DNA from: Rugalucina vietnamica
Lineage: Eukaryota; Mollusca; Bivalvia; Lucinida; Lucinidae
Assembly: GCA_964017185.1 (NCBI GenBank)
Contig: OZ024873.1
Location: 45,246,760 to 45,310,759, forward strand
Direction of reading: 5' to 3'
DNA length: 64,000 bases
This document shows, piece by piece, positions 4,389-64,000 of the stretch (positions are counted from its first letter, which is position 1; each line of letters begins with the position of its first letter). The notes below the pieces were generated by a model. It was not told the origin of the DNA and did not search any database. It worked only from the letters and a program-made list of their open reading frames with translations. The position numbers were made by a program, and so were the translations under genes.

Positions 4389-4451
<63 letters not shown>

Positions 4452-4935
4452 CATTAATATTCAGTCCTACTGCCCATTTCCTGCAAAACGGTCATTTTAA
4501 ATGACATTTTTAAAGTTTTCCCCATTCAAATGCATTGGCGACCTATGTTGACCTTGCCGTAAAATAGGTCAAGGTCATCACAGGGTCATGATTTATATAC
4601 ACATTGTAGTGCTTGAGCCATTGATGCTTCATGCCAAGTTTCGTTGAAATCGGTTCACCGGTTCTGGAGAAGAAGATTTTTAAAGGTTTTTACCATATAT
4701 GGGCATAGCGGCCATCTTGGTCATGTGACCTGGATTATTTATATACACATTGGTTCCCCCTTCCTATAGATGCTTCATATAAAATTTGGCTTTGATTGGC
4801 CAAGCGGTTTCAGAGAAGAAGATCTTTGAAAATGGTGGACGACGACGACGCCGACGGACGGACGACGGACGGACACCGGATCATGGCCATCCTATAAGCT
4901 CACCTTGTGAGCCTAATGGCTCAGATGAGCTAAAA
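3658..4935 (+). repeat. Helentron-like interspersed repeat, right part (copy 1)
   Basis: Continuation of the repeat broken at 733. It contains two more internal units, a ~57-bp T homopolymer (about 4390-4446), a GACGGACGGACG simple run near 4850, and the terminal hairpin GCTCACCTTGTGAGCC...GGCTCAGATGAGC followed by an A run. This tail matches the copies ending at 26239, 43658 and 47025. Confidence 0.6.
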
Positions 4936-5042: not shown

Positions 5043-6364
5043 TGTGGCGATTTCAGAATCTAACCCCATGGTTTTGCATAAGTATGTCCTAGTGTTGTGG
5101 TTGTATTTATCTTTTTCGGTTGAAAACGAAAGTAGAAATCTAATTTTTGATCAATTTCCCGTTTGCTAGACGCTTACAGTTGGAAGACGCTCATTACTAG
5201 GTATATGGACCGTTGTGCAAGGAACGTCCGTTTGCACACGACGCCGCTAGATGGCGCGTGCTCCACCACTATAAAAGCACGAGTTCGCACAGTTTTGGTT
5301 AGTTGTAAGCTGACCGCCAAAGAAGCAACATTAAAAGTAAATAATTTGTAGGGAATAACTGGAGTCAACAGATAGGACTTTAGGCCAAAATATATAAGTA
5401 TTAAAACTGTTCATGACCATAGGTGCTAGATCGCCAGGTGGAGTGAACAGTAAATACAAAAATATTAGCTGCCTGGGTCGTATCTGTTCTGGGTATTCCC
5501 AAGTGTAGTGAACTGGATAGTGGTCCAGTAAAAGCTGAAATAGTGTTCTCCGTACTATTGCAACTTGGGTGGTCTGAGGCTTGATAACTTTGTTGAACTA
5601 TCCTGGATGGTTTGGGGTTTTAGGGAGGTTTCGTTGGGTAGGTCTGGGGTGCTCCAGACGCGGTTGAAAGAGGAGGCTGTGAAGGAGAGTTATACAGGGG
5701 TAAACAGCTGGGACTTTAGGCCAAAGCTGCCTGGGTCGCAGTTGTCCTGTATATCTCTCAGTGCAGTGTTTGGACAGTGGTCCAGGTGTCATAGAGACAG
5801 TGGTCTCAGCTCTGAGACAGTGGTCTCAGAGGACAGTGATGGCGGACAGTGGTCCTAGTGCGGGTTTAGCCTCATGAAAGTAACATAGATGGGATGAATG
5901 ATAGATATGGTTATGATGTCTCTACAACGCTTGGGTAGTTTCAAGTCAGAGTGGTCTGGACTGGTCTGAAAGACCAGTGGAACGTTCTTATATATCGTTA
6001 TAAACATTCAGTTATGATTGTTAATAAAGGGCCATGAACCTTATCAAGACCTAGGGCGAGGGTTGGGATCCCGTAAAACCGGTTTAAGCCCCCTAGTAAT
6101 TGTATTACTAACCGTTCCAAGGCGGTGCTCTTGGTATGGTTCATGCCTGTCAGACCTTTCGAAGGGTCTTATTTAACTTAGTATTGGTTGAAGTCGATTT
6201 GAGTGACCTATTTCATTTCTTAGGTCAATTTTGCTATATGATTATTGTGTGGTGGCAGTATTTGTTTAAATGAGTAAAGTCATGGTCGCATTCAATGGTC
6301 GACCATGCATAAGTTTTGTTATCAGTAGTCTAGCCAGTCGGTTACGCTCGCTCGACACGTTACA
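5043..6364 (+). repeat. 5' LTR
   Basis: This 1322-bp LTR carries a TATA box at 5270-5276 (CTATAAAAGC) and a polyadenylation signal AATAAA at 6023-6028. It differs from the 3' LTR mainly by an 18-bp stretch near 5371-5388 that repeats the wording AGGACTTTAGGCCAAA found further along the LTR. Short internal repeats with GACAGTGGTC occupy about 5770-5860. Small open frames in it are duplicated in the other LTR and look non-coding. Confidence 0.88.
5270..5276 (+). promoter_or_regulatory. LTR TATA box
   Basis: TATAAAA in the context CCACTATAAAAGCACG, upstream of the likely transcription start. The same box is at 7004-7010 in the 3' LTR. Confidence 0.6.
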
Positions 6365-37000: not shown

Positions 37001-40000
37001 TGATAAGATGCATTTCATACATTTTCTTCGCAAAAAAAAGGGCAATAATGCGATGTTTTCAAATGATTTTGATGGAAATACGAACAATTCATATATAGTC
37101 AGATAGCTGCCATATTGATGACGTCATAAATCGACTCTGACGTGGCTGTAAGTGCAACGAACAGGTTTAATGTTATACATGTACCCCATAGATAAGTTTT
37201 ATATAGGTCGCCATAAATCGTCAAAAAAATCGCACGAGATTACCATTCCACATTGACTATTACCCATAATTCATGTTTTCAGTAAATATATTTATATCAC
37301 TGAATGCCACAATTTTTTTTTACTTGAAAACAAGTGTGACTACTAAATCCTGAATAGGCATGCTGGCAAGTAATTCAATCCAAAGTTATCTACAGCTATC
37401 TGACACTCACCCTTCCATAGAATACCCATCTCTGCTGTGTGGTCCTGAGCCCGGGTACATAGTGCCATCATCAGCCTGCATCAGGGCTGCAGTCATACCA
37501 CTGACACCCCCTGATCCTGGTCCTGGTCTACCCTGCCCACCATGACCATTCAGGTCCAACAGCAATGACTTGATTATCTAGAAACAAATAGCATGCAGTA
37601 CACAATAAAATGAGCCTCGACATGAGAAAACTGGTCTTCGGTGTTTCTGACCAGGTCGACACAAACCAGTCTGTACAGCCTCAGAAGCAGGCTAGAAGCT
37701 TGAAATTTCGGATTTAAGTGGAAGAGAAATTGTACTATCAGTGCAGCAAAAATAGAGGCACTGATCAGCTTCACAGTTACTGGTTTTCTCACGATGCGGC
37801 TCAAATATGCAAATATTATACCAGGAATTGAAAAAGTGATTTCAAGGACCTGACTAAAGCTAGTATCTCACTGGCATGTGAATTTCTCGTGACTGTTTTG
37901 CAAATTCGCACAACATTTGTGTGAGTGTCACATGAATAATACACGAAATATTTCGTAGGACTGTCGCGCGACGTTCGTGCGAGTGTCGCGAACCTGTTGC
38001 TGCAAAATTTTACCATGCGAAATTTTCGCGACACTCGTACGAATGTCGTGCGAGTGTCCTACGACGGTCGCACAACAGTCTTGAGAAAACATGCAAACAC
38101 CTCGCGACTATCTGGCGAGAAAATCAAACTAAGCGACATTCGTACGAATGTCGTGCGACACTCTCACGATTGTCGTGCGACTGTCACACGAATGAAAATG
38201 AAATTAAGCTACATTCGTAGGAAAGTCGTGAGACACTCTTTCAAAATTAGTCCGAAATTCGCGAATTAGTCGCATAATTGTCCATTCAATGAGACTGCAA
38301 TGTGAAAGTTGTGTTTATATCGTTAATCTTTGTCGCGAAATAGTCTCAAACTATTTGCGAACTAGTCTCCAGTTGTTGCATTCCAATGAGATAGGGGCTT
38401 AAGCACTTTCTAGGTATCATTTTATGCAATTTTTAGGAACTGAAGCATATATTTAACATTTGAGTCTCAAGTCCTGGGCCCTGTTGCATAAAACTTGATT
38501 AACTCTTAATTGCAGGTTAAAGTTCCAATTAACTTAATGACAGCTTTATTCCTGCTGCATTTTTGTCTATGAAAATCAACACTAGTGTATTCTTAAAGCT
38601 GCCATTAGCTAATGTAGCTCCAGAGGTACTTTAAAAAAATTGTTTTATGCAGCAGAAAATTAATGCCATCTTTACTAAGAGAGTTTTTGAACTTAATGGC
38701 AACTTAGGGTTTAAAGACAGCTTAAGTTCATGCAACAGGGCCCAGCTGATATGTACCACATCAAAACGCAAACTTGAGAATGATATTTTTTGATGTGGCT
38801 AACTGTAGTAAGATATTATACACATATCTTCCATGGCTAAGAGCCTAAGATACATGTACATGTTTCTTGGAAGTTTGGTACCAGTTTCAATTTTTTGAAA
38901 CCTTTGTAAATACAAACATTTGAGCCGCCCCATGGGAAAACCAACAATCTGCATAGGCGAAAACAAAGGCGCAGATCAGCTTCGCGGTAACCGCGAAGCT
39001 GATCAGCGCCTTTGTTTTCGCTACACGTATAGTACACTTCCTCTTCTTCCTAAATCCAAAATTTCAAGCTTCTAGCCTGCTTCTGTGCTTGTACAGGCCT
39101 GTTTGTGTCGGACCTGTACGGAAACCACAATGTTGGTTTTCCCACAAGGTGGCTCATTTGTTAGACTACCTTCAAGTCCCTCTTAAACTTGTCCATCATC
39201 TGATGTTGCTGTGCCTGTATCTGACCTATCTCTGTCTTCAGTTCATTCCTCAGAGTCTGAATAGATGAGTTGAATGTACTCATGTTGACCATCTTACCAC
39301 CAGGTGAGTTCTTTCTAATAGTTGCTTCCTCTTCTCCTTCTTCTTGGAGTTGTTCCTAAAATAAGGGAACTTGTAACACCACAGGACATTTACATTCTAC
39401 AAGCTAAAAAATTGTCCAAATTGCCATAAAACCCCTTCTTCTGAGTCGCTGAGTGTAGCGAAGCATTAGCTATGCTCAGCGAATCAGAAATGGGGTTTCT
39501 AGGAACATTGCGGCTATTTGTTCTGCACACTAAATGTCAATGTCCTGTGGTATGATGCATCAATTTGTATTGATGATTATATTTGTATAAAACATTGCTG
39601 AAATACCAAGATAATCATATATGAGCCTGTGAGTGAGAAAACCAACAATTTGTGTTCTGACCAGGTCCGATACAAACGGGCCTGTACAGTCACAGAAGCA
39701 GACTGGAAGCTTGAAATTTCGGCTTTAAGTAGAAGAGGGATTGTACTATTTGTGTAGGGAAAACAAAGGCGCCAATCAGCTGTGCAGTTACTGCACAGCT
39801 GATCTGCACCCTTGTTTTCACCTATGCAGATTGTTGGTTTTCCCATGCGGCGGCTCATATTGCACTTTTCTTCGAATTTCAGAAAATGAATAAGAAAAGG
39901 AGGTAAATAAGTCTTTACTTTGTTCATTTGATTTAGTGCTTTTAAAAAATCTTCTGAAAGCAGCAAAAGTCAATTTGTTGGAACCATAAAACTCATTCTA

Positions 40001-43000: not shown

Positions 43001-46000
43001 CTCAATAAACATTTCTGCAAAAACAAAATTCAAATGTCTGCAATTTTAGTGGAAAAATAGCCGATTTCCACTTTTCCCATTATAAGTCTATGGAAACTTT
43101 AAGTTGCCATAGCAACCAGAGTTCTTATCCGCCTGGAATAAAAAACACAAATTATGTAGAGGCCACTGTCAGGAACATGTATACAAAGTACAGGCTTCAT
43201 CCCCTTCACAGTTTCTGAGAAGAAGATTTTTGAATGTTTTTCAAAATTTTGCCCTATATGGGGCCCCTGCAACCAATCAAAATGAAGGATTAGGACAAAA
43301 GTCACAAGAAACGTAGAGGACTACTCAATAAACATTTCTACAAAAACAAAATTCAAATATCTCCAACAAGACAGCAAAAACTGGCAATTTTCACTTTTTT
43401 CCATTATAAGTCTATGGGAAGCATAAGTTGCCATAGCAACCAGAGTCCTTATCCGATCAAAACAAAAAACACAATTATTCTTTCCCCCTACCTGTAGATG
43501 GTGTATGTGTAATATGAGAACAATCGGCCCAGCAGTTTCAGAGAAGAAGATCTTTGAAATTGTGGACGACGGACGACGGACGACGGACGACGGACGGACG
43601 GACGACGGAGCATGGGTATACTATAAGCTCACCTATGAGCCTTCGGCTCAGGTGAGCTAAAAATTGTTGACTAGGACCTTAAGCCTCAAAACAAACAAAC
43701 AAAAATTATTCCTCTGTCATCAACTTTTCATAAATTTTTAACATTAAAATGCCTTTACAATCAAGTAGATGCTTTCAATTTGTTTTGAATTTCTTAGAAT
43801 CTCACTATGTTGAATCACCTCCATCTCACTGTGAATCTCTGTACTTTATCAAAATCACATACACAAGTTAAACATTGAGCACTTCAGCTAGCTATGAACA
43901 ACTCACCTGTCATTGACTTACAATTAATAAGTGATAAAAATGCTATAAAAACTTATAATTTACCCTAAATACTAGTTAAATTTTTTCTCTCTCATTTTTA
44001 CATCCTTTCAATGGTCTTCAATATTAGTTTAGCTCATATGAGATGGGAGAATCCCCCCAAAAAACCACCTGGCACACCCTCAAGCAGAACTTGGCCTGTC
44101 TCACATATGCCCCATGTGAGGCTGAAACCCACACTGGACACAGCAGTGAGATAATTGAATGATTAAGAGGAATCAGTGACCTTAACTACTGAGTCAGTCA
44201 TGAGAGCCGCCAATTTGGTATTTTAGGTAGAGCAAGCACTTTTTGGTATTGTATGAGTATCTATGACCTGTGAAAAGCGTGCCCTTTAAGACTTGAGCCT
44301 TCGCATGAGAAAAGCAACAATTTGCATATGCGAAAACAAAGGCTCAGATCAGCTTTGCAGTAACTGCGAAGCTGATCAGTGCCTTTGTTTTCACTACACA
44401 GATAGTATAATTCCTCTACTTTCTAAATACAAACTTTCCAGCCTCTAGCCAACTTCTCGTTTTGTGTCTGACCTGTTCTAAAACCACATTGTTGGTTTTC
44501 TCATGAAGTTGCTCACTCACCAGAGCTGATTTTTCTTCATCTTCCATTCCAAACTGGTCATGCCATTTCTCCAACAGATCATCCATCTGGTCCTGAAATA
44601 GTACACATTCAGTATTATCATTGTTTATTTGCTTGTTTTGAGGTTCAACATCCCAGTCAACAATTTTTCAGTCATGTCGGGAGATAGCCACCGCTTCCTG
44701 GGTATTAACCAGTGCTCTGGGTAGTTAGCATGCATTGCTGAGGTACACAACATGGCAGCTGTAACAATGTGTCGCTGGTGGGGATTGATCCCAGGACCTC
44801 TCGATTCAGGGTCTGATGCTCTATCACTATGCCACTGCCCCCCACACCCCTTATAAGAGATCCACATCACGATAACATGTCCATATAATGTCCTTATACC
44901 CCACTTTTATATAGCAAATTTGGGGTATACCTATTTTTTGTTGTTTTGCTTCGAAAACATAGATTGTGGGTACTCGTTAGAACCGCCTTGCCGAAGCAAT
45001 TCTAATGTGTACCCATAATCTATGTTTTGACCAAAAATAAGAGAAATACATGAGGACCAATGGTCCAGTAAACGCTCACCTGAGTCTGCTGCATATACCA
45101 ATAAACATGTTTGAATATTATTGTATTTAACCCCAGTGCAGGGGCAGATGAAGCCCTTGGGCGGTTTTCCTTTTTTCAGAATAATCAATATTCTGTCCAT
45201 TTGCCAATTTCTTGGCTCTTGCTGGCTTTTCCCTTCAAATGACATTTTAACAGTTTTTCCCATTCAAATGCATGGGCAACCCATGTTGACCTTGCCATAA
45301 ACTTGGTCAAGGTCATCACAGGGTCATGATTTATATATACATTGTAGTACTTTAACCATGGATGCTTCACACCAAGTTTCATTGAAATCAATCTATTGGT
45401 TTCAGAGAAGAAGATATTTGAAGGGTTTTTACCATATATGGGCATGGCGGCCATCTTGGTCATGTGACCTAGATTATTAATATACACATTGGTTCCCCCA
45501 TCCTATAGATGCTTCACATGAAATTTGGCTTCAATTGGCCAAGTGGTTTCAGAGGAGAAGATGTTTGAATGTTATGGTAATATACATGTATGTTGCCCCG
45601 GGGTGTGGGCATATGAGCCCTTAGGTCCATTTTTTTCAGAATCATTAATATTTAGTCCTACTACCCATTTCCTGCAAGATTTTCACCTCAAATGACTTTT
45701 TAAAAGTTTTTCCCATTCCAATGCATTGGCGACCTATGTTGACCTTGTCGTAAAATAGGTCAAGGTCACCACAGGGTCATGATTTATATATACATTGTAG
45801 TACTTCAGCCATTGGTGCTTAATGCCAAGTTTCTTTGAAATCGGTCCACCAAATTCGGAGAAGAAGATTTTTGACGGGTTTTTACCATATATGGGCATGG
45901 CAGCCACCTTGGTCATGTGCACTAGATAATTTATATATACATTAATTCCCCCATTCCATAGATGCTTCACATAAAATTTGGCTTTGAGTCGCCAAGTGGT

Positions 46001-49000
46001 TTCAGAGGAGAAGATGTTTGAATATTATGGAGATATACACGTATATTGCCCCGGGGTGGGGGCAGATGAGCCCCTGGGGTCCAATTTTTTTCAGAATCAT
46101 TAATATTCAGACCTACTGCCCATTTCCTGCAAGACTTTCACTTTTAATGACATTTAAAAGTTTTCCCCATTCAAATGCATTGGCGACCTATGTTGACCTT
46201 GCCGTAAAATAGGTCAAGGTCATCCTAAGGTCATTATTTATATACACATTGTGGACCTTGAGTCACTTATGCTACATGCCAAGTTTCAAGATCCTAGGCT
46301 TTTGGGTTCTGGAGAAGAAAATTTTTAAAGGTCTTTACCATATATGGGCATGGCGGCCATCTTGGTCATGTGACCTGGATTAGTTATATACACATTGGTT
46401 CCCCCTTCCTATAGATGCTTCATATAAAATTTGGCTTTGATTGGCCAAGCGGTTTCAGAGGAGATGATGTTTGAATATTATGGAGATATACATGTATATT
46501 GCCCCGGGGTGGGGGCATATGAGCCCCTGGGGTCCAATTTGTTTCAGAATCATAGATATTCAGCCCTACTGCCCATTTCCTGCAAGACTTTCACTTTAAA
46601 TGACATTTTAAAAGTTTTCCCCATTCAAATGCATTGGCGACCTATGTTGACCTTGCCGTAAAATAGGTCAAGGTCATCTTAAGGTCATTATTTATATACA
46701 CATTGTGGACCTTGAGTCACTTATGCTACATGCCAAGTTTCAAGATCCTAGGCCTTTGGGTTCTGGAGAAGAAGATTTTTAAAGGTTTTTACCATATATG
46801 GGCATGGCGGCCATCTTGGTCATGTGACCTGTATTATTTATATATACATTGTTTCCCCCTTTCTATAGATGCTTCATATAAAATTTGGCTTTGATTGGCC
46901 AAGTGGTTTCAGAGAAGAAGATCTTTGAAATTGTGGACGGACGACAGACGGACGATGGACGGACGGACGCCGGATCATGGCCATCCTATAAGCTCACCTT
47001 GAGAGCCTAACAGCTCAGGTGAGCTAATAAAAAAATTTCCAATGAAATTTTCAATTTTTACAAATGTAAAAAAATCATGGGCGTGTTTTCATAAAGATAT
47101 CGACATAGAGTGAATGATCTAGAGATGTTGAATAAAGAATACGTGGGTGATCCAAGAAGTAATGCGAACACAACTGTATTTTACTAACCAACGCAGATAC
47201 ATTTAAATAATTTGGCATGTGTACACGTGTATATATGTGCAGTAATTAGGTGTAATGTCATGAAGTTTGGATGACGAATTGAGATTTAAGGAATGTTTGA
47301 TTTGTCGACCCGAAGTCGACATGGACGCGAAATTGACTGAAAACGTCAATTTTGTTAGGGGTACGGGGAAAGATTTTGTGCTCCAATTTATTAAATTGAC
47401 ATTTATATACATACAAATCATATAAGTTGTGTTATATATGCCTTATGTTTGGAAATAATAGAGAAACCGAAATGCAAAGATCAGCAGGGACTATTCTATG
47501 TTGCCTAGCAACGGCATCTAACAAAAATATCACAATTTCCACGAAGTACGACAAATACCTATAATTCGTGCGTATATTTGACTCCGATCAGATTGTAAAT
47601 ATCGATATTTATGCCCACAGCCTATCACAACGAAGAATTTCTATTCAAAAAATGAATATTGTATGGAATTTAAACTTTTTGGTTAAGTAGAATGGACGCT
47701 GATGAAAATGCGGAGATTTTGAGAGATGAAAATTGACTCAAATTCTAGGGGGTACAGATAGCCAATCCTCAATAATTTGCGTTGTGTTAAACCCATAAAG
47801 GTATGTGCTGTAAACCTATTCAAGGGATTATTGTACTTTGGAATAAAACGATTATTGACGTTATTGTGCTTTGTATATGCAACTGCAGTGCATAAATAAA
47901 ATCCATTTTAATCGTGGCCAAGGTCGTTTACCTTGCATTCTCTTGTTGCTAGGCAACGAGGGTTGCTATGTGATTCAGTCAAAATAGCAATTGGATCTGG
48001 AAAATTCGATAATGCATCATAATTCTGATGTAAACTATCTTGAAAAATGGCAATGGTGAAAGAAATTACACATGAGTTCGCATTACTTCTTGGATCACCC
48101 TCGTATGCTTATTTTCCTCAATTTCCAAGCAAACTGTACATTCACAAACCTTAATTTGTAGAGTAGCTTTCTTCAAATCTTCCCCACCTTCTTCTGTCAT
48201 ATCATCATCATAGAATTCCTTGTATGGGGAGCAATTCTGTTCAATATAGTCGAGAAATTTGTTCTGTGAGCTGTCGCTCATGCCGTCCCAGAAACCCAAG
48301 ATCATTATGGCTTTTTGCATCACAGCATTGGCTTGACAGTTATCATACACTCTGAAATGGATCAGGAACTTATGCACCAGTCATTTGTAACCACACCCCC
48401 ATCCCCCCCCCCCCCCACACACACAGCATTGGCTTGACAGTTATCATACACTCTGAAATGGATCAAGAACTTATGCACCAGTCATTTGTAACCACGCCCC
48501 CACCCCCCCCCCCCCCACACACACACAGCATTGGCTTGACAGTTATCATACACTCTGAAATGGATCAGGAACTTATGCACCAGTCATTTGTAACCACGCC
48601 CCCACCCCCCACACACACAGCATTGGCTTGACAGTTATCATACACTCTGAAATGGATCAGGAACGTATGCACCAGTCATTTGTAACCACCCCCCCACCCC
48701 CCACACACACACACAGCATTGGCTTGACAGTTATCATACACTCTGAAATGGATCAGGAACTTATGCACCAGTCATTTGTAACCACGCCCCCCCCCCCCCC
48801 ACACACACACACAGCATTGGCTTGACAGTTATCATACACTCTGAAATGAAATGGATCAGGAACTTATGCACCAGTCATTTGTAACCACCCCCCCCCCACA
48901 CACACACAGCATTGGCTTGACAGTTATCATACACTCTGAAATGGATCAGGAACTTATGCACCAGTCATTTGTAACCACACCCCCCCCCCACACACACAGC

Positions 49001-52000
49001 ATTGGCTTGACAGTTATCATACACTCTGAAATGGATCAGGAACTTATGCACCAGTCATTTGTAACCACACCCCCACCCCACCCCCCCCACACACACACAG
49101 CATTGGCTTGACAGTTATCATACACTCTGAAATGGATCAGGAACTTATGCACCAGTCATTTGTAACCACACCCCCACCCCCCCACACACACAGCATTGGC
49201 TTGACAGTTATCATACACTCTGAAATGGATCAGGAACTTATGCACCAGTCATTTGTAACCCCCCCCCCCCCACACACACACAGCATTGGCTTGACAGTTA
49301 TCATACACTCTGAAATGGATCAGGAACTTATGCACCAGTCATTTGTAACCAAGCCCCCACCCCCCCCCCCCCACACACACACAGCATTGGCTTGACAGTT
49401 ATCATACACTCTGAAATGGATCAGGAACTTATGCACCAGTCATTTGTAACCAAGCCCCCACCCCCCCCCCCAACACACACACACAGCATTGGCTTGACAG
49501 TTATCATACACTCTGAAATGGATCAGGAACTAATGCACCAGTCATTTGTAACCACGCCCCCCCCCCCCCCCCACACACACACACAGCATTGGCTTGACAG
49601 TTATCATACACTCTGAAATGGATCAGGAACTTATGCACCAGTCATTTGTAACCACGCCCCACCCCCCCCACACACACAGCATTGGCTTGACAGTTATCAT
49701 ACACTCTGAAATGGATCAGGAACTTATGCACCAGTCATTTGTAACCACCCCACCCCCCCCCCACACACACAGCATTGGCTTGACAGTTATCATACACTCT
49801 GAAATGGATCAGGAACTTATGCACCAGTCATTTGTAACCACCCCTCCCCCCCCCCACACACACAGCATTGGCTTGACAGTTATCAAACACTCTGAAATGG
49901 ATCAGGAACTTATGCACCAGTCATTTGTAACCACACCCCCCCCCCCACACACACACAGCATTGGCTTGACAGTTATCATACACTCTGAAATGGATCAGGA
50001 ACTTATCCACCAGTCATTTGTAACCACACCCCCACCCCCCCCCACACACACACAGCATTGGCTTGACAGTTATCATACTCTCTGAAATGGATCAGGAACT
50101 TATGCACCAGTCATTTGTAACCACGCCCCCACCCCCCACCCCCCCCCCACACACACACAGCATTGGCTTGACAGTTATCATACACTCTGAAATGGATCAG
50201 GAACTTATGCATCAGTCATTTGTAACCACGCCCCCACCCCCCCCCCCCACACACACAGCATTGGCTTGACAGTTATCATACACTCTGAAATGGATCAGGA
50301 ACTTATGCACCAGTCATTTGTAACCACACCCCCACCCCACCCCCCCCCCCACACACACAGCATTGGCTTGACAGTTATCATACACTCTGAAATGGATCAG
50401 GAACTTATGCACCAGTCATTTGTAACCACACCCCCACCCCCCCACACACACAGCATTGGCTTGACAGTTATCATACACTCTGAAATGGATCAGGAACTTA
50501 TGCACCAGTCATTTGTAACCCCCCCCCCACACACACACACACAGCATTGGCTTGACAGTTATCATACACTCTGAAATGGATCAGGAACTTATGCACCAGT
50601 CATTTGTAACCAAGCCCCCACCCCCCCCCCCACACACACACACAGCATTGGCTTGACAGTTATCATACACTCTGAAATGGATCAGGAACTTATGCACCAG
50701 TCATTTGTAACCAAGCCCCCACCCCCCCCCCCCAACACACACACACAGCATTGGCTTGACAGTTATCATACACTCTGAAATGGATCAGGAACTAATGCAC
50801 CAGTCATTTGTAACCACGCCCCCACCCCCCCCCCCCCCACACACACACAGCATTGGCTTGACAGTTATCATACACTCTGAAATGGATCAGGAACTTATGC
50901 ACCAGTCATTTGTAACCACGCCCCACCCCACCCCACACACACAGCATTGGCTTGACAGTTATCATACACTCTGAAATGGATCAGGAACTTATGCACCAGT
51001 CATTTGTAACCACCCCACCCCCCCACACACACAGCATTGGCTTGACAGTTATCATACACTCTGAAATGGATCAGGAACTTATGCACCAGTCATTTGTAAC
51101 CACCCCTCCCCCCCCCCCACACACACAGCATTGGCTTGACAGTTATCAAACACTCTGAAATGGATCAGGAACTTATGCACCAGTCATTTGTAACCACACC
51201 CCCCCCCCCCACACACACACAGCATTGGCTTGACAGTTATCATACACTCTGAAATGGATCAGGAACTTATGCACCAGTCATTTGTAACCACGCCCCCACC
51301 CCCCCCCCCCCACACACACAGCATTGGCTTGACAGTTATCATACACTCTGAAATGGATCAGGAACTTATCCACCAGTCATTTGTAACCACACCCCCACCC
51401 CCCCCACACACACACAGCATTGGCTTGACAGTTATCATACTCTCTGAAATGGATCAGGAACTTATGCACCAGTCATTTGTAACCACGCCCCCACCCCCCA
51501 CCCCCCCCCCACACACACAGCATTGGCTTGACAGTTATCATACACTCTGAAATGGATCAGGAACTTATGCATCAGTCATTTGTAACCACGCCCCCACCCC
51601 CCACCCCCCCCCCCCCACACACACAGCATTGGCTTGACAGTTATCATACACTCTGAAATGGATCAGGAACTTATGCACCAGTCATCATTTGTAAACACAC
51701 CCCCCCCCCCCACACACACACACAGCATTGGCTTGACAGTTATCATACACTCTGAAATGGATCAGGAACTTATGCACCAGTCATTTGTAACCACACCCCC
51801 CACACACACACAGCATTGGCTTGACAGTTATCATACACTCTGAAATGGATCAGGAACTTATGCACCAGTCATTTGTAACCACACCCCCACCCCACCCCCC
51901 CCCACACACACAGCATTGGCTTGACAGTTATCATACACTCTGAAATGGATCAGGAACTTATGCACCAGTCATTTGTAACCACACCCCCACCCCCCCCCAC

Positions 52001-55000
52001 ACACAGCATTGGCTTGACAGTTATCATACACTCTGAAATGGATCAGGAACTTATGCACCAGTCATTTGTAACCCCCCCCCCACACACACACACACACAGC
52101 ATTGGCTTGACAGTTATCATACACTCTGAAATGGATCAGGAACTTATGCACCAGTCATTTGTAACCAAGCCCCCACCCCCCCCCCCCACACACACACAGC
52201 ATTCGCTTGACAGTTATCATACACTCTGAAATGGATCAGGAACTTATGCACCAGTCATTTGTAACCAAGCCCCCACCCCCCCCCCCCAACACACACACAC
52301 AGCATTGGCTTGACAGTTATCATACACTCTGAAATGGATCAGGAACTTATGCACCAGTCATTTGTAACCACGCCCCCACCCCCCCCCCCCCCACACACAC
52401 ACACAGCATTGGCTTGACAGTTATCATACACTCTGAAATGGATCAGGAACTTATGCACCAGTCATTTGTAACCACGCCCCACCCCCCCCCACCCCACACA
52501 CACAGCATTGGCTTGACAGTTATCATACACTCTGAAATGGATCAGGAACTTATGCACCAGTCATTTGTAACCTCCCCACCCCCCCACACACACAACATTG
52601 GCTTGACAGTTATCATACACTCTGAAATGGATCAGGAACTTATGCACCAGTCATTTGTAACCACCCCTCCCCCCCCCCCACACACACAGCATTGGCTTGA
52701 CAGTTATCATACACTCTGAAATGGATCAGGAACTTATGCACCAGTCATTTGTAACCACACCCCCACCCCCCCCCACACACACAGCATTGGCTTGACAGTT
52801 ATCATACACTCTGAAATGGATCAGGAACTTATGCACCAGTCATTTGTAACCACGCCCCCCCCCCACACACACACAGCATTGGCTTGACAGTTATCATACA
52901 CTCTGAAATGGATCAGGAACTTATCCACCAGTCATTTGTAACCACACCCCCACCCCCCCCCCACACACACAGCATTGGCTTGACAGTTATCATACTCTCT
53001 GAAATGGATCAGGAACTTATGCACCAGTCATTTGTAACCACGCCCCCACCCCCCACCCCCCCCCACACACACAGCATTGGCTTGACAGTTATCATACACT
53101 CTGAAATGGATCAGGAACTTATGCATCAGTCATTTGTAACCACGCCCCCACCCCCCACCCCCCCCCCCACACACACACACAGCATTGGCTTGACAGTTAT
53201 CATACACTCTGAAATGGATCAGGAACTTATGCACCAGTCATCATTTGTAAACACACCCCACCCCCCCCCCCACACACACAGCATTGGCTTGACAGTTATC
53301 ATACACTCTGAAATGGATCAGGAACTTATGCACCAGTCATTTGTAACCACGCCCCCACCCCCCAACCCCCCCCCCCCCCCACACACACAGCATTGGCTTG
53401 ACAGTTATCATACACTCTGAAATGGATCAGGAACTTATGCACCAGTCATTTGTAAGCACGCCCCCACCCCCCACCCCCCACCCCCCCACACACACTGGCA
53501 TTGGCTTGACAGTTATCATACACTCTGAAATGGATCAGGAACTTATGCACCAGTCATTTGTAACCACGCCCCCACCCCCCACCCCCACCCCCCCCACACA
53601 CACACACAGCATTGGCTTGACAGTTATCATACACTCTGAAATGGATCAGGAACTTATGCACCAGTCATTTGTAACCACGCCCCCACCCCCCACCCCCCCC
53701 CACACACACACAGCATTGGCTTGACAGTTATCATACACTCTGAAATGGATCAGGAACTTATGCACCAGTCATTTGTAACCACGCCCCCACCCCCACCCCC
53801 CCCACACACACAGCATTGGCTTGACAGTTATCATACACTCTGAAATGGATCAGGAACTTATGCACCAGTCATTTGTAACCACACCCCCAAGCCCCCCCCA
53901 CACACACAGCATTGGCTTGACAGTTATCATACACTCTGAAATGGATCAGGAACTTATGCACCAGTCATTTGTAACCACGCCCCCACCCCCCACCCCCCCC
54001 CCCCCCACACACACACAGCATTGGCTTGACAGTTATCATACACTCTGAAATGGATCAGGAACTTATGCACCAGTCATTTGTAACCACGCCCCCAACCCCC
54101 CCCCCCCTTACACACACACCATTGGCTTGACAGTTATCATACACTCTGAAATGGATCAGGAACTTATGCACCAGTCATTTGTAACCACACCCCCACCACC
54201 CCCCCACACACACAGCATTGGCTTGACAGTTATCATACACTCTGAAATGGATCAGGAACTTATGCACCAGTCATTTGTAACCACGCCCCCACCCCCCCCC
54301 ACACACAGCATTGGCTTGACAGTTATCATATACTCTGAAATGGATCAGGAACTTATGCACCAGTCATTTGTAACCACACCCCCACCCCCCCACACACACA
54401 GCATTGGCTTGACAGTTATCATACACTCTGAAATGGATCAGGAACTTATGCACCAGTCATTTGTAACCACACCCCCACCCCCCCCCCCACACACACACAC
54501 ACACAGCATTGGCTTGACAGTTATCATACACTCTGAAATGGATCAGGAACTTATGCACCAGTCATTTGTAACCACACCCCCACTCCCCCACCCCCCACAC
54601 ACACAGCATTGGCTTGACAGTTATCATACACTCTGAAATGGATCAGGAACTTATGCACCAGTCATTTGTAACCACGCCCCCACCCCCCCACCCCCCCCCA
54701 CCCCACACACACAGCATTGGCTTGACAGTTATCATACACTCTGAAATGGATCAGGAACTTATGCACCAGTCATTTGTAACCACGCCCCCACCCCCCACCC
54801 CCCCCCCACACACACAGCATTGGCTTGACAGTTATCATACACTCTGAAATGGATCAGGAACTTATGCACCAGTCATTTGTAACCACACCCCAAATATGGG
54901 GGCATGGTTACAAATGACTAGTGCATTAAAGCAAGAATGTATCATGATTAATGCTTTAGGTAAATTATAAAATCCAAAAGCATTTTCCATATTTCAGTGC

Positions 55001-58000
55001 TAATCCAATAGATTGATACATTATACTGTAAAAATTTATAGGCAGCAATGACTTTAATGCAAATATTCTCTACAATAAATGTTTTGGTGACTTCACCATG
55101 TGAGTACTAGAACAATAAGGTAAATAGGGGGTAAAATTGCAAAAGAATATGCTAAACTCAAATTTCTGACATCTCGTGTCCAGTATGGAGCAAACTGAGC
55201 AACAGAGATTAATTTGTCTTATAAGTGAGCCTGTGAGTGAGAAAACCAACAATTTGGATTGCGACCAGGTCCGACACAAACCAGGCTGTACAGTCACAGA
55301 AGATGGTTAGAGGCTGGAAATTTTGGATTTAGAAAGTAGAGGAATTGTTCTATCCGTGTGGTGAAAACAAAGGCAATCTGATCAGCTTCGCAGTTACTGC
55401 AAAGTTGATCAGCTTCGCAGTTACTGCGAAGCTGATCTGCGCCTTTGTTTTCGCCTATGCAGATTGTTGGTTTTCCAACATGGAGGCTCAAGTACAAGTA
55501 TTTACCTTTGGAATGTATCTGAGAGCAGAGCAATGAAGAGATTCAGGCACAGAATAGCTGATAATGCCAACCAGGATACCACCAGGATATAGGTCATCAC
55601 ACTGTCCACCTCTAACATTGTCTAATAGAATAAAAAAATTAACATTATTATCTAGAGCAAATTTGACAAAATCTCTGCTTTATAGACATTTGTCAAAGAC
55701 ATTTTGACGTTCCATGAGCTTTCTAAGTAATTGAGGTAGATGAGTTATAATAAATTATTTCAATTGTCATAACTATATCAGTTAAATGTTACTGAACAAA
55801 CAAATGCAAACCAACAAAAATACACCTTATCTCAAAGTATGGTACTGAATATAAAGGCCTTGAATGCACCTTTCTGCAACTTTGAAAAAGGACTGACCAG
55901 GAAACATCTTTGTAAATGTTTTGAACGAATGCCTTCTGCATGGAACTTTTTCATTTATTTTGCAGAAAAGATTTTTGTCCTTCACTTTTTTTTATCACTT
56001 TCAATATCAAGACTATCTAAGACTTACAGGCAGAGGGTATTCATCTACAAGGGTCATTCTATACAGTGTGAACAGAGTTTCTCCAAAGTTATTAAACTCA
56101 TCTATAGTTATCTCAGTCCTGTTGGGGTCGCCAACACTATCCGCAGGGTATTTGTTACCACCAAATATCATCCAGTATGCACAGACTGAAAACATGGACA
56201 ACAGTCATACAATGTGTAAAAGTTGTTGAACTCTTCAATAGTTATCTTTAATTCTGTTGGGATCTCCTACACTGTCAGGTTATTTGGTACTGCTGAATGT
56301 CATCCAGTACACAGACTGAAACTAGAATTGTCAGAGGATCTGACTATAGCCCCACTTCTGAGCTTTCTTCTAGGGTGAGAAAAACAATGACAGGTAACAA
56401 TCCCAAGCTAGATCTTGTTAATGTTGATACATGTAAAAAGATTGGTAAGATTCTGTCAATTCGTTCTCAAGATATTGAGCGTAAACAAAATTCCGACGTC
56501 AATCGAGGGCCGTAACTCATTCAAAATTTTGCGAAAAATGATAGGCAACAATCTCAAGCTAGATCTTGTCAATGTTGATGAGCATACAAATTTTGGTTAA
56601 ATTCTGTCAATTTGTTCTCAAGATATTGAGCAGAAACAAAATTCTGATGTCAATCAAGGGCCATAACTCTGTCAAAATTTGCAAAAAATGATTGGCAACA
56701 ATACCAAGCTAGATTTTGGCAATGCTGATGTGCATACAAAATTTGGACAGATTCTGTCAATTTGTTCTCAAGATATTGAGCGGAAACGAAATTCTGATGT
56801 CAATCAAGGGCTGTAACTCCGTCAAAATTCGGCAAAAAATGACGGACAACAATCCCAAGCGAGATCTTTTCAATGTTGGTGTGCATACAAAATTTTGTTA
56901 GATTCTGTCAATTCATTCTCAAGATATTGAGCGGAAATGAAATTATGACGTCAATCAAGGGCTGTAACTCTGTCAAAATTTTGCAAAAAAATGATGTGCT
57001 ACAATCCCAAGCTAGATCTTGTCAATGTTGATGTGCACACAAAATTTGGTCAGATTCTGTCAATTCGTTCTCAAGATATTGATCGGAAACGAATTTCCGA
57101 CGTCAATCAAGGACCATAACTCAATTAAAATTTTGAAAAATGACGGGCAACAATCCCAAGCTAGATCATGTCAATGTTGATGTGCATACAACATTTGGTC
57201 AGATTCTGTCCATTTGCTCTCAAGATATTGAGCGGAAACGAAATTCTGATGTCAATATAGGGCCATCCAAGGGCAATAACTCTTCCGAAAATTTGGGGAA
57301 ACTGACTTGCATTAATACATAAGTAGATATTGTCAATATTGATGCATATGCCATTTGGTTAGAGTCTAACAACTGGTTCTCAAGTTATGAGTGATAACAG
57401 AATTATGGACGGAATAACGGAACGACGGAAGGACAGGATGAATCCAGTATAGCCCCACTTTTTCAAAGCGGGGCTATAATAACATTTCTCCAAAGTTGTT
57501 GAACTCTTCAATAGTTAATTTTATTGTTGGGAACTCTGATAGGTGCTTGTTGCTACTACAGATCACACAGAATGCACAGACTGAAAATACCATGATTAGA
57601 AATCTGTACACAAATTATAGTATGAGAAATCTAATACATGATAAACAGGTTTGATATGGAAATTTTGACATTTAATATAGAGATCAAAAAATGATTTTGT
57701 CATTCATTAACATTTGCTAGGTCCCGAGGGGGTGTTGAAAACCGAGGGCGTAGCCCGAGGTTTTCAACACTCCCCGAGGGACCTAGCGAATGTTATGAAT
57801 GACAAAATCAATTTATTGCTATTATTGCATAAAGTCTGCACAAACGAAAGAAATAATGGTGTACGGTACTATATTTTACAGCCTCATCACATTTTCATAC
57901 ATGTAAAAGCTTTCATCTTTATGCTCACTAGTAAATTTTATCCGTCTCAACGTACATGTAGCAGTAAGATGATTGCGGCGATGAAGACAAATAAGACACA

Positions 58001-61766: not shown

Positions 61767-62095
61767 TTATTGTTTGCCATGTACGAAGTAATCCACAAAC
61801 TTTGAGAGCAATTTACTATGTTTAAATTTGAGTAGCATAACAATTTCTGATATCTTGAGAAATTCTGCTTTAGTTAAGTATAAAAGGTCAATATATTTTT
61901 TCCTATTTTCACTGATACAATATCCGTTAAAGATTGAATAACCTATTATTGACAATATGAGGTTTAAGTCGAGATATTCATTCTGTGTTGGTTTATAACC
62001 AATTATAAGATATTTTAACTCTTTAAATGAACAAGAGAAATTACATTTTTTGAGGCTCTGATGTATATGCATCCAAAGATTTGAACCGTCGGGCA
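61767..62095 (-). pseudogene. LINE ORF2 C-terminal end, shifted frame
   Basis: Continues from FIECP in another frame (HIHQSLKKCNFSC..., YLIIGYKPTQNEYLDLN, SIIGYSIFNGYCIS, KKYIDLLY) to a stop. This hydrophobic ending follows the zinc element in L1/Tx1-type ORF2. Confidence 0.75.
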
Positions 62096-63694
62096 TTCTA
62101 TGAATAAATGGTTGTACGTTTCCACAACATGACAAAGTTCACACAGTGGGTCTTCTGTTAATTTCCATTTAAACAGAATTTGTTTACATGGTAAAATTGC
62201 ATTTATTAACTTAAATCTGTATTCTTTTAATTTATTTATTTGTATTCCTGCCATTATTGACCTGCATACCGATTCCCAATATGTATTTGACGGCGTTAAA
62301 TTAAATTTATCTATCCACAAGTTTTGCGCAATTGGTTTAACCACAGTTTTACTTTGTAAAAAGTTAAATACCAATTTATTTTGGATTAAAGTGTCGGATT
62401 TTAGTACTATTTTGCGATCATTCTTCTCGTTAGCCAAAAAGAAGCAAATTTGAGTTTGCACATTTGTATCTCTTGAGGTGCGACTTTTTAGTATGTTTTT
62501 CCAGTTTTCTGGAATCGCTAATTTGAGTTTATGAATTTCGCTGATCCAGTTTTGTCTATTATGCAGTTTTTGTAATATAAATTCCGCTTCAATTTCCCCA
62601 GTTGGAGAAATGATATCATTTATATGCATTATGCCATCGTCTATCCAGTTTTTAAATAATAGCCAGTCCCTATCATGTTTTATAAAATGATTACCCCATA
62701 TGACTTGTTTTCGTATATTGTTAAATGTTTTCGGTTCATCCATACACCACCCTCCAGCATTTACCCATGCCTCGAGTAGATTTTTATAAAATATCGGAAT
62801 CTTTATACGTTTTAGGTTTTGAACGCATCCAAAGTTCATATTAAATAGAGCGAAGTCTTTCCCATATCTAGAAAAGTAAAATTTCGGAATTATTTTCCAA
62901 TTCATGTCGTCTTGAGATATAAGCCTATTTACCCATTTTATTTGAAAAGTTTGCAGCTGTGTTTTAAGATCTACCATATTTAAGCCACCACTTTCATAAT
63001 TTTGCATCAATTGTTTTCGTTTAATTTTTTCACTCTTATCGTTCCATAGGAAATTAAATATAATTATTTCTATTTTCGAAATTATAAGCTGTGATACCGG
63101 TATACACTGAAGTAGATAGTTGCATTTTGACATGACGAGCGATTTTAGAACCACAATTTTTCCGTTAAATGTTAATTTTCTTCTCTTCCACGAATTTAGC
63201 AAATTTTGAATCTCATCTATTAGTTTATCCCAGTTGAGTTGCATACTTTCTTGCGTGTTTGTACTAAAATAGATACCCAGCGATTTGATAACTGTCATTG
63301 TAAAGTCTATGCCGTGTATACTTAGTCGATTATTTCGTCTATTTTTGCCTAAAAGCAGTCCTTTGGTTTTTGTTTTGTTTAATACCAGGCCTGATACTTC
63401 AGAAAACCGTTTAATTTCGTTAAGTAATATCGGTATAATGTTTTCTGATTCTAAAAAGATCGTAGTGTCGTCTGCCATTTGAGTTAGTTTTATTTCTTTT
63501 GATCTCCCGATTCTTATACCTCTAATATTATTATTGTTTCTTATGTTTTCTGCCATGATTTCTGCAGCGATTATGTAAAGCAAAGCAGATATCGGACAGC
63601 CTTGTCGAATTCCGCGCGATACTTCAAAACTACAAGACACCCATCCATTATTTATATTTACTATTATTGGGATGTTTGTATAACATTTTGACAA
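62015..63694 (-). CDS. LINE ORF2 piece: RT motifs B-D, thumb and C-terminus (559-codon frame)
   Basis: Motif B is SRGIRQGCPISALLY, motif C is TQMADDTTIFL (MADD in place of the usual Y/FADD; both catalytic Asp present) and motif D is GLVLNKTKTKGLLLG. The rest is the long C-terminal region typical of the L1/Tx1 clade, with the Cys/His element CELCHVVETYNHLFIEC. The last ~25 codons are out of frame; the true end continues at 61767-62095. Retroelement protein, not a host gene. Confidence 0.85.
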   Translation of the reverse strand: MSKCYTNIPIIVNINNGWVSCSFEVSRGIRQGCPISALLYIIAAEIMAENIRNNNNIRGIRIGRSKEIKLTQMADDTTIFLESENIIPILLNEIKRFSEVSGLVLNKTKTKGLLLGKNRRNNRLSIHGIDFTMTVIKSLGIYFSTNTQESMQLNWDKLIDEIQNLLNSWKRRKLTFNGKIVVLKSLVMSKCNYLLQCIPVSQLIISKIEIIIFNFLWNDKSEKIKRKQLMQNYESGGLNMVDLKTQLQTFQIKWVNRLISQDDMNWKIIPKFYFSRYGKDFALFNMNFGCVQNLKRIKIPIFYKNLLEAWVNAGGWCMDEPKTFNNIRKQVIWGNHFIKHDRDWLLFKNWIDDGIMHINDIISPTGEIEAEFILQKLHNRQNWISEIHKLKLAIPENWKNILKSRTSRDTNVQTQICFFLANEKNDRKIVLKSDTLIQNKLVFNFLQSKTVVKPIAQNLWIDKFNLTPSNTYWESVCRSIMAGIQINKLKEYRFKLINAILPCKQILFKWKLTEDPLCELCHVVETYNHLFIECPTVQIFGCIYIRASKNVISLVHLKS

Positions 63695-64000
63695 AATTTA
63701 TGAAACGGTTTCCGAATCCGAATTTTTCCAAAGTTAGATTCATAAAATTCCATTCAATCGAGTCAAACGCCTTTTGGTAGTCCAAGAATAAGAGTACCCC
63801 GTGTAAGTTGTTATCTTCGGCATAGTCGATAATGTCCTGTATTTGGCGAATACTAAACCCTATAAATCTATTTTTTATGTAACCGTTCTGATCGGTACTT
63901 ATTATTTTTGAAATTACTTTTTGCAGTCTTTGTGCCAATGTTCTCGCTATGATTTTATAGTCCACGTTTAACAAGGTTATGGGACGCCAATTGCCTAGCT
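63654..64000 (-). pseudogene. LINE ORF2 piece: RT fingers and motif A
   Basis: Reads NWRPITLLNVDYK at the window edge, RTLAQRLQKVISKII, TDQNGYIKNRFIG and motif A LFLDYQKAFDSIEW with the catalytic Asp. The frame is lost after FVKMLY, where the next piece continues as TNIPIIVNINNGW. Confidence 0.85.

Follow-up and report, generated by a model that had tools for sequence, protein, structure and literature searches.

Tandem arrays that multiply an intron–exon boundary have been described in amphioxus under the name of mirages. According to the accessible parts of the two reports, mirages are minisatellite-like boundary copies that carry a splice signal together with part of the exon, turn over in concert and leave splicing undisturbed; they occur in Adh3, the globin genes BflGb6 and BflGb9, troponin C and PGBD5, with units of 10–160 bp (PMC3087553, PMC3902484). 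Troponin C and PGBD5 were added in PMC3902484, PGBD5 with 2 or 7 units of 60 bp and 3 or 6 units of 108 bp, depending on the assembly, and the accessible text of PMC3087553 calls the way in which mirages originate unclear. Here we analyse a 64,000-nucleotide (nt) stretch of the genome of the bivalve Rugalucina vietnamica (contig OZ024873.1, positions 45,246,760 to 45,310,759; hereafter the window), in which the 3′ splice site and coding start of exon C of a predicted cation-channel gene recur in 66 decoy units that run into the authentic exon start. The intronic half of every unit derives from the end of a miniature inverted-repeat transposable element (MITE)-like sequence, and we read the array as a mirage-type boundary minisatellite that was seeded by a transposon and is probably mostly silent.

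The initial annotation of the window knew of no described case of a boundary amplified to this degree; in kind, the array matches the amphioxus mirages. They differ in their cephalochordate host and in having 2–7 units where the accessible text gives counts (it gives none for Adh3), whereas the present array lies in a lophotrochozoan, has 66 units arranged partly in higher-order blocks, and contains a transposon end within the unit. In human segmental-duplication genes, variable minisatellites at exon–intron boundaries, with units of about 30 bp repeated four times on average, likewise alter gene structure and can create introns, but the accessible text describes no complete 3′ splice site present in dozens of copies (PMC2812944). 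The terminal region of a foldback element became the building block of a tandem array in Tetris/TIR-220 of Drosophila virilis, where the repeats come from within the element and the accessible text mentions no host exon or splice site (PMC4079207). An intronic minisatellite of Caenorhabditis elegans is linked to alternative splicing, with no boundary array in the part of the report available (PMC4039745), and intronic repeats are described, none of them across an exon boundary in the accessible text, in an earthworm metallothionein gene (PMC12783039), an abalone TSSK1-like gene (PMC6905558) and a cone snail (PMC3862624). No other boundary array outside chordates was found among the titles and abstract openings of the open-licence PubMed Central literature. 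The lophotrochozoan host, the 66 units as against the 2–7 given in the accessible text, and an origin that is readable from a MITE end are new here.

A lancelet host was considered, mirages being known from lancelets, and is ruled out by Hox peptides. In the flanks of five central-class Hox matches at C12:40.8-41.4 Mb we find NIPKLTGPD, a peptide of the Lox5 type, and the UbdA peptides QAIKELNDTG and QAIKELNEQ; we take KLTGP (Lox5) and UbdA peptides to be marks of Lophotrochozoa and of protostomes, respectively. A search for the egg-laying-hormone family PF02323 as a further lineage marker matched nothing, and since its controls gave no match either, it carries no weight. The genome comprises 1.09 Gb in 47 contigs; 16 of the contigs C1–C17 add up to about 1,049 of 1,090 Mb, which suggests about 17 chromosomes.

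Architecture of the boundary array

We divided the array, read on the minus strand from 54891 to 48321, into cores and linkers by our own segmentation. It comprises 67 cores, including the authentic start of exon C, and 66 GT/G-rich linkers. Each unit consists of a 65-bp core and a linker of 23–46 nt, measures 88–111 bp (mean 98.4 bp), and combines about 40 nt from the end of the intron with the CAG acceptor and the first ~31 nt of exon C. The core reads TTACAAATGACTGGTGCATAAGTTCCTGATCCATTTCAG/AGTGTATGATAACTGTCAAGCCAATG (the slash marks the splice junction, here and below), with 39 intronic and 26 exonic bases, and the linker is mostly CTGTGTGTG(G)n. Tandem Repeats Finder reported overlapping arrays at 48500–54891 with periods of 93–109 bp. 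The initial annotation, which had described about 66 tandem copies of a unit of about 97 bp between 48321 and 54891, built from the exon's own 3′ splice site and coding start and ending in the real exon start at 48351, is borne out on all these points.

The cores are identical in 47 of 67 cases, and the remainder carry nine distinct substitutions and two distinct insertions; variation is far greater in the linkers. All 67 cores retain the CAG acceptor, and 65 contain the exact string CTGATCCATTTCAG. The captured part of exon C ends with ...GCTGTG at 48321, and the reading frame is not kept in the units. As in a mirage, the copies span the boundary between a host intron and exon, and on one side the array terminates in the authentic boundary, within an intact predicted frame.

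A MITE end within the repeat unit

In its intronic half, the unit is made up of one end of a MITE-like palindromic element of about 300–330 bp with the terminal inverted repeat (TIR) TGCACCAGTCATTTGTAACC, inserted 21 nt upstream of the exon C acceptor. Here the initial annotation was right that the array is made of an exon border and overlooked the transposon end on which the repeat is founded. At the upstream edge of the array, the left end of the element forms a 61-bp palindrome (54925–54865) with the right TIR of the first unit. TAA directly follows the right TIRs, and TAAGTTC is retained in 64 of 67 cores. Without the element, the end of the intron would read ...TTGCTT-TAA-GTTCCTGATCCATTTCAG/A, a normal-looking acceptor.

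A genome search that took the last copy plus the exon as its query gave 106 matches, of which 67 belong to the array with its exon and 39 lie outside; among the best candidates, which alone were scored, the outside matches cover only the linker and the GGTTACAAATGACTGGTGCAT region. We analysed the pairing of MITE ends at the best 20 of these 39 places. Ends were paired 295–338 bp apart at 12 of the 20, with identical 3-bp flanks in nine of the 12 pairs (eight TAA and one TTT), and GTGTGTG lay within 60 bp of the right repeat in seven of the 12, a frequency biased upward by a search query that itself held the tract. The pattern GGTTACAAATGACTGGTGCATAAG (the right end plus TAAG), with at most one mismatch, gave 686 + 823 = 1,509 hits in the genome, those of the array included, and its reversed control gave 0 + 0. 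Among 100 listed hits of the 1,509, 55 belong to the array and 45, all on C1–C5, lie outside it, no two of the latter within 200 kb of each other. By its TIRs, its 3-bp target-site duplications (in nine of the 12 paired copies) and its many short dispersed copies, the element is MITE-like, and sister copies often have a variable GT/G tract just inside the right TIR. The PIF/Harbinger superfamily, defined by a 3-bp TWA target site and a matching transposase, is a candidate assignment; the target site mostly fits, with TAA in eight of the 12 paired copies.

Because the unit is partly an interspersed repeat, the array might be regarded as ordinary intronic repeat DNA whose likeness to the exon start is incidental. 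We reject this explanation and consider its probability negligible: the first 31 bases of exon C are exact in 57 of the 67 cores, with small changes in the others, and the genome search, among the best candidates scored, matched the exon-bearing part at array places only.

The 61-bp palindrome, folded as RNA, reaches −53.7 kcal/mol (z −10.5). Since this single left TIR faces a right TIR in every unit, a choice of the docking type known from Dscam can be imagined, in which the left TIR pairs with one right TIR and thereby decides which acceptor is presented. We regard such docking as highly improbable. With the right TIR of the first unit just 21 nt off, the left TIR should already be engaged by it during transcription; the palindrome of the transposon by itself accounts for the pairing, and the decoys lead to stops rather than to alternative exons.

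Growth of the array

The units extend from the GT/G tract across the original pyrimidine stretch and the CAG into the exon. The exonic part of the unit ends with ...AATGCTGTG and runs directly into TGTGTGGGG, and the simplest first step is therefore a TGCTGTG/(GT)n tandem duplication, in which TGCTGTG of exon C would have been joined to the (GT)n tract of the MITE through a few nucleotides of GT homology. Expansion would have followed by unequal recombination and by slippage in the G-rich linker. Quadruplexes are linked to the instability of minisatellites, and on the RNA-sense strand three-G quadruplex patterns occur in 35 of the 66 linkers and two-G patterns in 63.

Rare core variants recur 16 units apart (units 17/33, 18/34, 19/35 and 20/36) and again 13–14 units apart (34/48, 35/49, 36/50, 38/51 and 42/55), and the mean similarity between units peaks at an offset of 16 (0.882, versus 0.839–0.879 at the other offsets up to 34). 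Repeat turnover, or concerted evolution, is evident within the array from the 47 identical cores and these spaced shared variants, and later growth appears to have proceeded partly by blocks, which we delimit as H1–H3 (Table 1).

Near-identical, G-homopolymer-rich units of 98 bp are hard to assemble, and a real boundary minisatellite could owe part of its copy number or arrangement to the assembly. This we consider unlikely, given that H1–H3 differ pairwise by 12–15 mismatches and many linker gaps, and so are not verbatim duplicates, and that the locus lies inside a 76-Mb contig.

Splice-site choice among 67 acceptors

We scored splice sites with a crude matrix. Of the 67 acceptors, 65, including the authentic one, have equal scores, and the other two score slightly higher. 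The array acceptor scores close to that of exon A and below that of exon B, and its score is reached by 22 of 645 AG dinucleotides in 12 kb of neighbouring sequence. Exon B thus faces 67 near-equivalent acceptors, much as the initial annotation had it, and only the final copy precedes the full 202-nt exon. Its further proposal, that exon definition through the donor selects the correct site, is weakened. The exon C donor, AAG/GTTTGT, is weak (0.73), and the array contains 67 GGG/GTGGGG sites at 1.66 and three other donor-like sites at 2.27–3.07; these outscore the real donor, so that the last copy does not stand out by the strength of its donor. The remaining argument for the last copy would be that it alone opens a 202-nt coding exon. 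The initial annotation also raised a titration of splicing factors and an effect on transcription speed, both of which are conjectural. In duplicated splice-site constructs (Reed and Maniatis, 1986), identical sites reportedly compete, and exon context and position decide between them; those were laboratory constructs with few sites, whereas the present case is a natural array of 67.

Read onward, all 66 decoys reach a stop after 20–36 codons. The TGAC of the MITE terminal repeat, with its A 30 nt before exon C by hand count, is a fair candidate for a branch point and may now serve as one. G-runs can either enhance or silence a pseudoexon, according to the accessible part of PMC3606458, so that the G-runs of the linkers may act in either direction.

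The decoys are near-perfect acceptor copies that lie closer than the real site to the upstream donor, and each ends in an early stop. The array could accordingly act as a splicing rheostat, in which decoy use scales with array length and feeds nonsense-mediated decay, so that copy number tunes the dose of the channel. We consider this unlikely. Splice-site positions show no excess constraint (five distinct substitutions in 39 intronic bases versus four in 26 exonic bases, p = 1.0, in a test of low power), and such equal conservation is as would be expected of a young neutral array. Moreover, the block-spaced shared variants resemble ordinary repeat turnover, and the amphioxus mirages are reported, in the accessible text, as leaving the mRNA undisturbed.

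The copies could also be used in turn by recursive splicing, each CAG/AGT acceptor being followed by a donor-like GTATGA, in steps of about 98 nt. The 66-unit array contains AGT/GTATGA, three bases past the acceptor, 60 times. This site scores poorly as a donor (−1.16), it coincides with the bases that begin the coding part of the real exon, and a 7-kb intron does not need 98-nt steps; we give recursive splicing very little credence.

The host channel gene

The predicted exons A–E form a single open frame when joined; D and E were chosen by eye from the list of open frames. The peptide encoded by A, B and C matches Ion_trans in Pfam (E = 1.4e-10) and PKD_channel (8e-4, below the cut-off of that family). 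A PDB search with the same peptide gave 136 sequences at E up to 1, and among the best 60 of these, which we inspected, the closest relatives are TRPV2, polycystin-2 and an L-type calcium channel (E about 6e-4 to 1e-3). Exon C fits a TRP/polycystin-like cation-channel gene, an assignment that is sound at the family level. The TRPV2 alignment (query residues 61–114, E = 6e-4) runs ungapped across the B–C junction at residue 91, so that homology lends weak support to the junction, and it is plausible that exon C is a real coding exon. The intron between exons B and C spans 7,154 nt, of which the array takes up about 6.5 kb. A whole-genome protein search returned no other copy of exon C, its sole match being its own locus, and the genome therefore offers no control copy that is free of the array.

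Two other repeats of the window were noted. The intron downstream of exon C contains a 453-bp unit repeated 3.8 times with 87% matches (window positions 45228–46937), and a 560-residue open frame at 62015–63697 on the minus strand, with RVT_1 and zf-RVT matches, probably belongs to an element of the long interspersed nuclear element type.

Boundary duplications elsewhere in the gene and genome

Exon A has two decayed copies of its acceptor and coding start (Table 1), the nearer of which scores 93, against a best score of 30 in 300 shuffles. The two copies flank a 151-bp tandem repeat (56382–57264) and are the remains of an earlier boundary duplication within this gene.

We screened 53 Ion_trans matches by self-BLAST (30 in L030–L059, 13 in L060–L062 and 10 in L063–L065). 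The screen was non-random, being confined to one family, with the best matches and gene-dense stretches chosen and 1.5-kb flanks taken for the first 30. It was also insensitive: the exon A copies went unreported in the 11-kb region of the window that holds the large array, and in smaller regions the second decayed copy was caught and its direct pairing with the first was not. Two of the 53 matches, L062 and L064, contain short-period duplications that span the end of an exon together with its donor. In L062, which lies in another cation-channel gene, the copies read CTGGATTTCATCATTGTCCTT/GTAAGC and then CTGGATTTCATGATTATACTT/GTTAGC, an exon 3′ end with its donor. In L064, the last ~120 coding bases of a pore exon, presumably sodium-channel-like, are repeated directly downstream together with the GTAAGTA donor; the copies encode identical residues over the stretch MVFRIL to NFIVS and share one continuous open frame, and perhaps both are used. 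Boundary duplications seem to be recurrent in this genome, and not always in the company of this MITE.

Two further pairs were left out of this count. L044 contains a repeat pair 2.15 kb apart, and L065 (G000:C7:9999001-10006000) contains exon-like copies at 4422–4580 and 5790–5924, 1.3 kb apart and 79% identical, which form an ordinary tandem exon pair, perhaps mutually exclusive.

Table 1. Positions of the array, its parts, the host exons and related boundary duplications. Positions refer to the window, except for L062 and L064, where they refer to the regions given.
Feature	Position	Strand	Remarks
Boundary minisatellite ('mirage'-like)	48321..54891	minus	66 decoy units plus authentic acceptor and exon start
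31-nt exonic segment	48321..48351	minus	exact in 57/67 cores, own copy counted
Authentic 3′ splice site region of exon C	48352..48369	minus	GTTCCTGATCCATTTCAG
Left MITE TIR	54906..54925	minus	TGCACTAGTCATTTGTAACC; hairpin with first right TIR
Target-site duplication TAA, left copy	54926..54928	minus	
Right MITE TIR, first unit	54865..54884	minus	GGTTACAAATGACTGGTGCA; in units; exact from TTAC on in 59/67
Last right MITE TIR copy	48373..48392	minus	adjoins authentic splice site
Target-site duplication TAA, right copy, last unit	48370..48372	minus	
Higher-order block H1	51791..53346	minus	16 units; versus H2, 12 mismatches in 1,456 aligned bases
Higher-order block H2	50324..51790	minus	15 units
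Higher-order block H3	49065..50323	minus	13 units; versus H2, 13 mismatches in 1,247 aligned bases
Exon A	56028..56185	minus	predicted
Exon B	55506..55621	minus	upstream exon; channel pore/last-helix region by homology; donor AAG/GTAAAT
Exon C	48150..48351	minus	202 nt; VYDNCQANAVMQKAIM...; donor AAG/GTTTGT
Exon D	44521..44592	minus	predicted; DQMDDLLEKWHDQFGMEDEEKSAL; in frame with exon C
Exon E	39170..39355	minus	predicted; EQLQEEGEEEATIRK...; 3′ end uncertain (39170 approximate)
Decayed copy of exon A acceptor and ~100 coding bases	56219..56321	minus	84/108 columns identical
Second decayed copy of exon A acceptor and coding start	57485..57587	minus	score 64, without shuffle control; self-BLAST E 5e-8
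L062 (G000:C4:35005001-35014000)	6385-6451/6451-6517	plus	66-bp tandem duplication, 91%; another cation-channel gene
L064 (G000:C8:49230001-49238000)	618-491/459-332	minus	90.6% of 128 bases identical

Discussion

We assign a probability of about 0.74 to the reading of the array as a transposon-seeded, mirage-type boundary minisatellite that is probably mostly silent. The likeliest account is that of a young minisatellite which the spliceosome passes over, and a function of the array is most likely absent or minor. The spliceosome would normally join exon B to the last copy, since no other opens a full coding exon, and the array would be removed as part of the intron of about 7.15 kb. Any leaky use of a decoy would yield transcripts that are destroyed by nonsense-mediated decay.

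Several observations weigh against this reading. On the side of splicing, the decoys score like the real acceptor and donor strength leaves the choice unexplained, and both the use of exon C and the skipping of the decoys are predictions from genomic sequence. As to the transposon, eight of the 20 outside places lack paired MITE ends and three of the 12 pairs lack matching flanks, and a rule that took the nearest left end picked up interior motifs and thus gave equal flanks in no more than 10 of 20 rows. The remnant at the upstream end of the array measures only 61 bp, so that either the interior of the MITE was lost or a short form was inserted, and the GT/G tract that the founder would have carried is deduced from sister copies found with a tract-containing query. 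No copy of this MITE was found near the L062 duplication, the one of the two screen duplications that was checked. Finally, the identity among H1–H3, 98.8–99.2% outside gaps, is little above the 98.2–98.9% that they share with the remaining array, and the case for block duplication therefore rests on the shared variants.

A bolder combination, which we regard as a long shot, would make the insertion of transposons near splice sites a general engine of boundary minisatellites. In it, the 66 equivalent decoys would form a brake on the channel that is heritable and depends on array length, since every wrong choice leads to a stop codon and costs the transcript; the G-rich linkers, as hnRNP F/H sites or as quadruplexes, would bias the choice towards the last copy.

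On the transposon-seeded reading, the locus shows one concrete route to a mirage, namely a MITE beside an acceptor followed by tandem growth into the exon, and it extends the phenomenon beyond chordates, to a lophotrochozoan host. Offering 67 practically identical acceptors, of which one is correct, it constitutes a natural test of position versus exon context versus downstream signals in 3′ splice-site choice, and the array is also relevant to models in which introns are gained by the duplication of splice sites.

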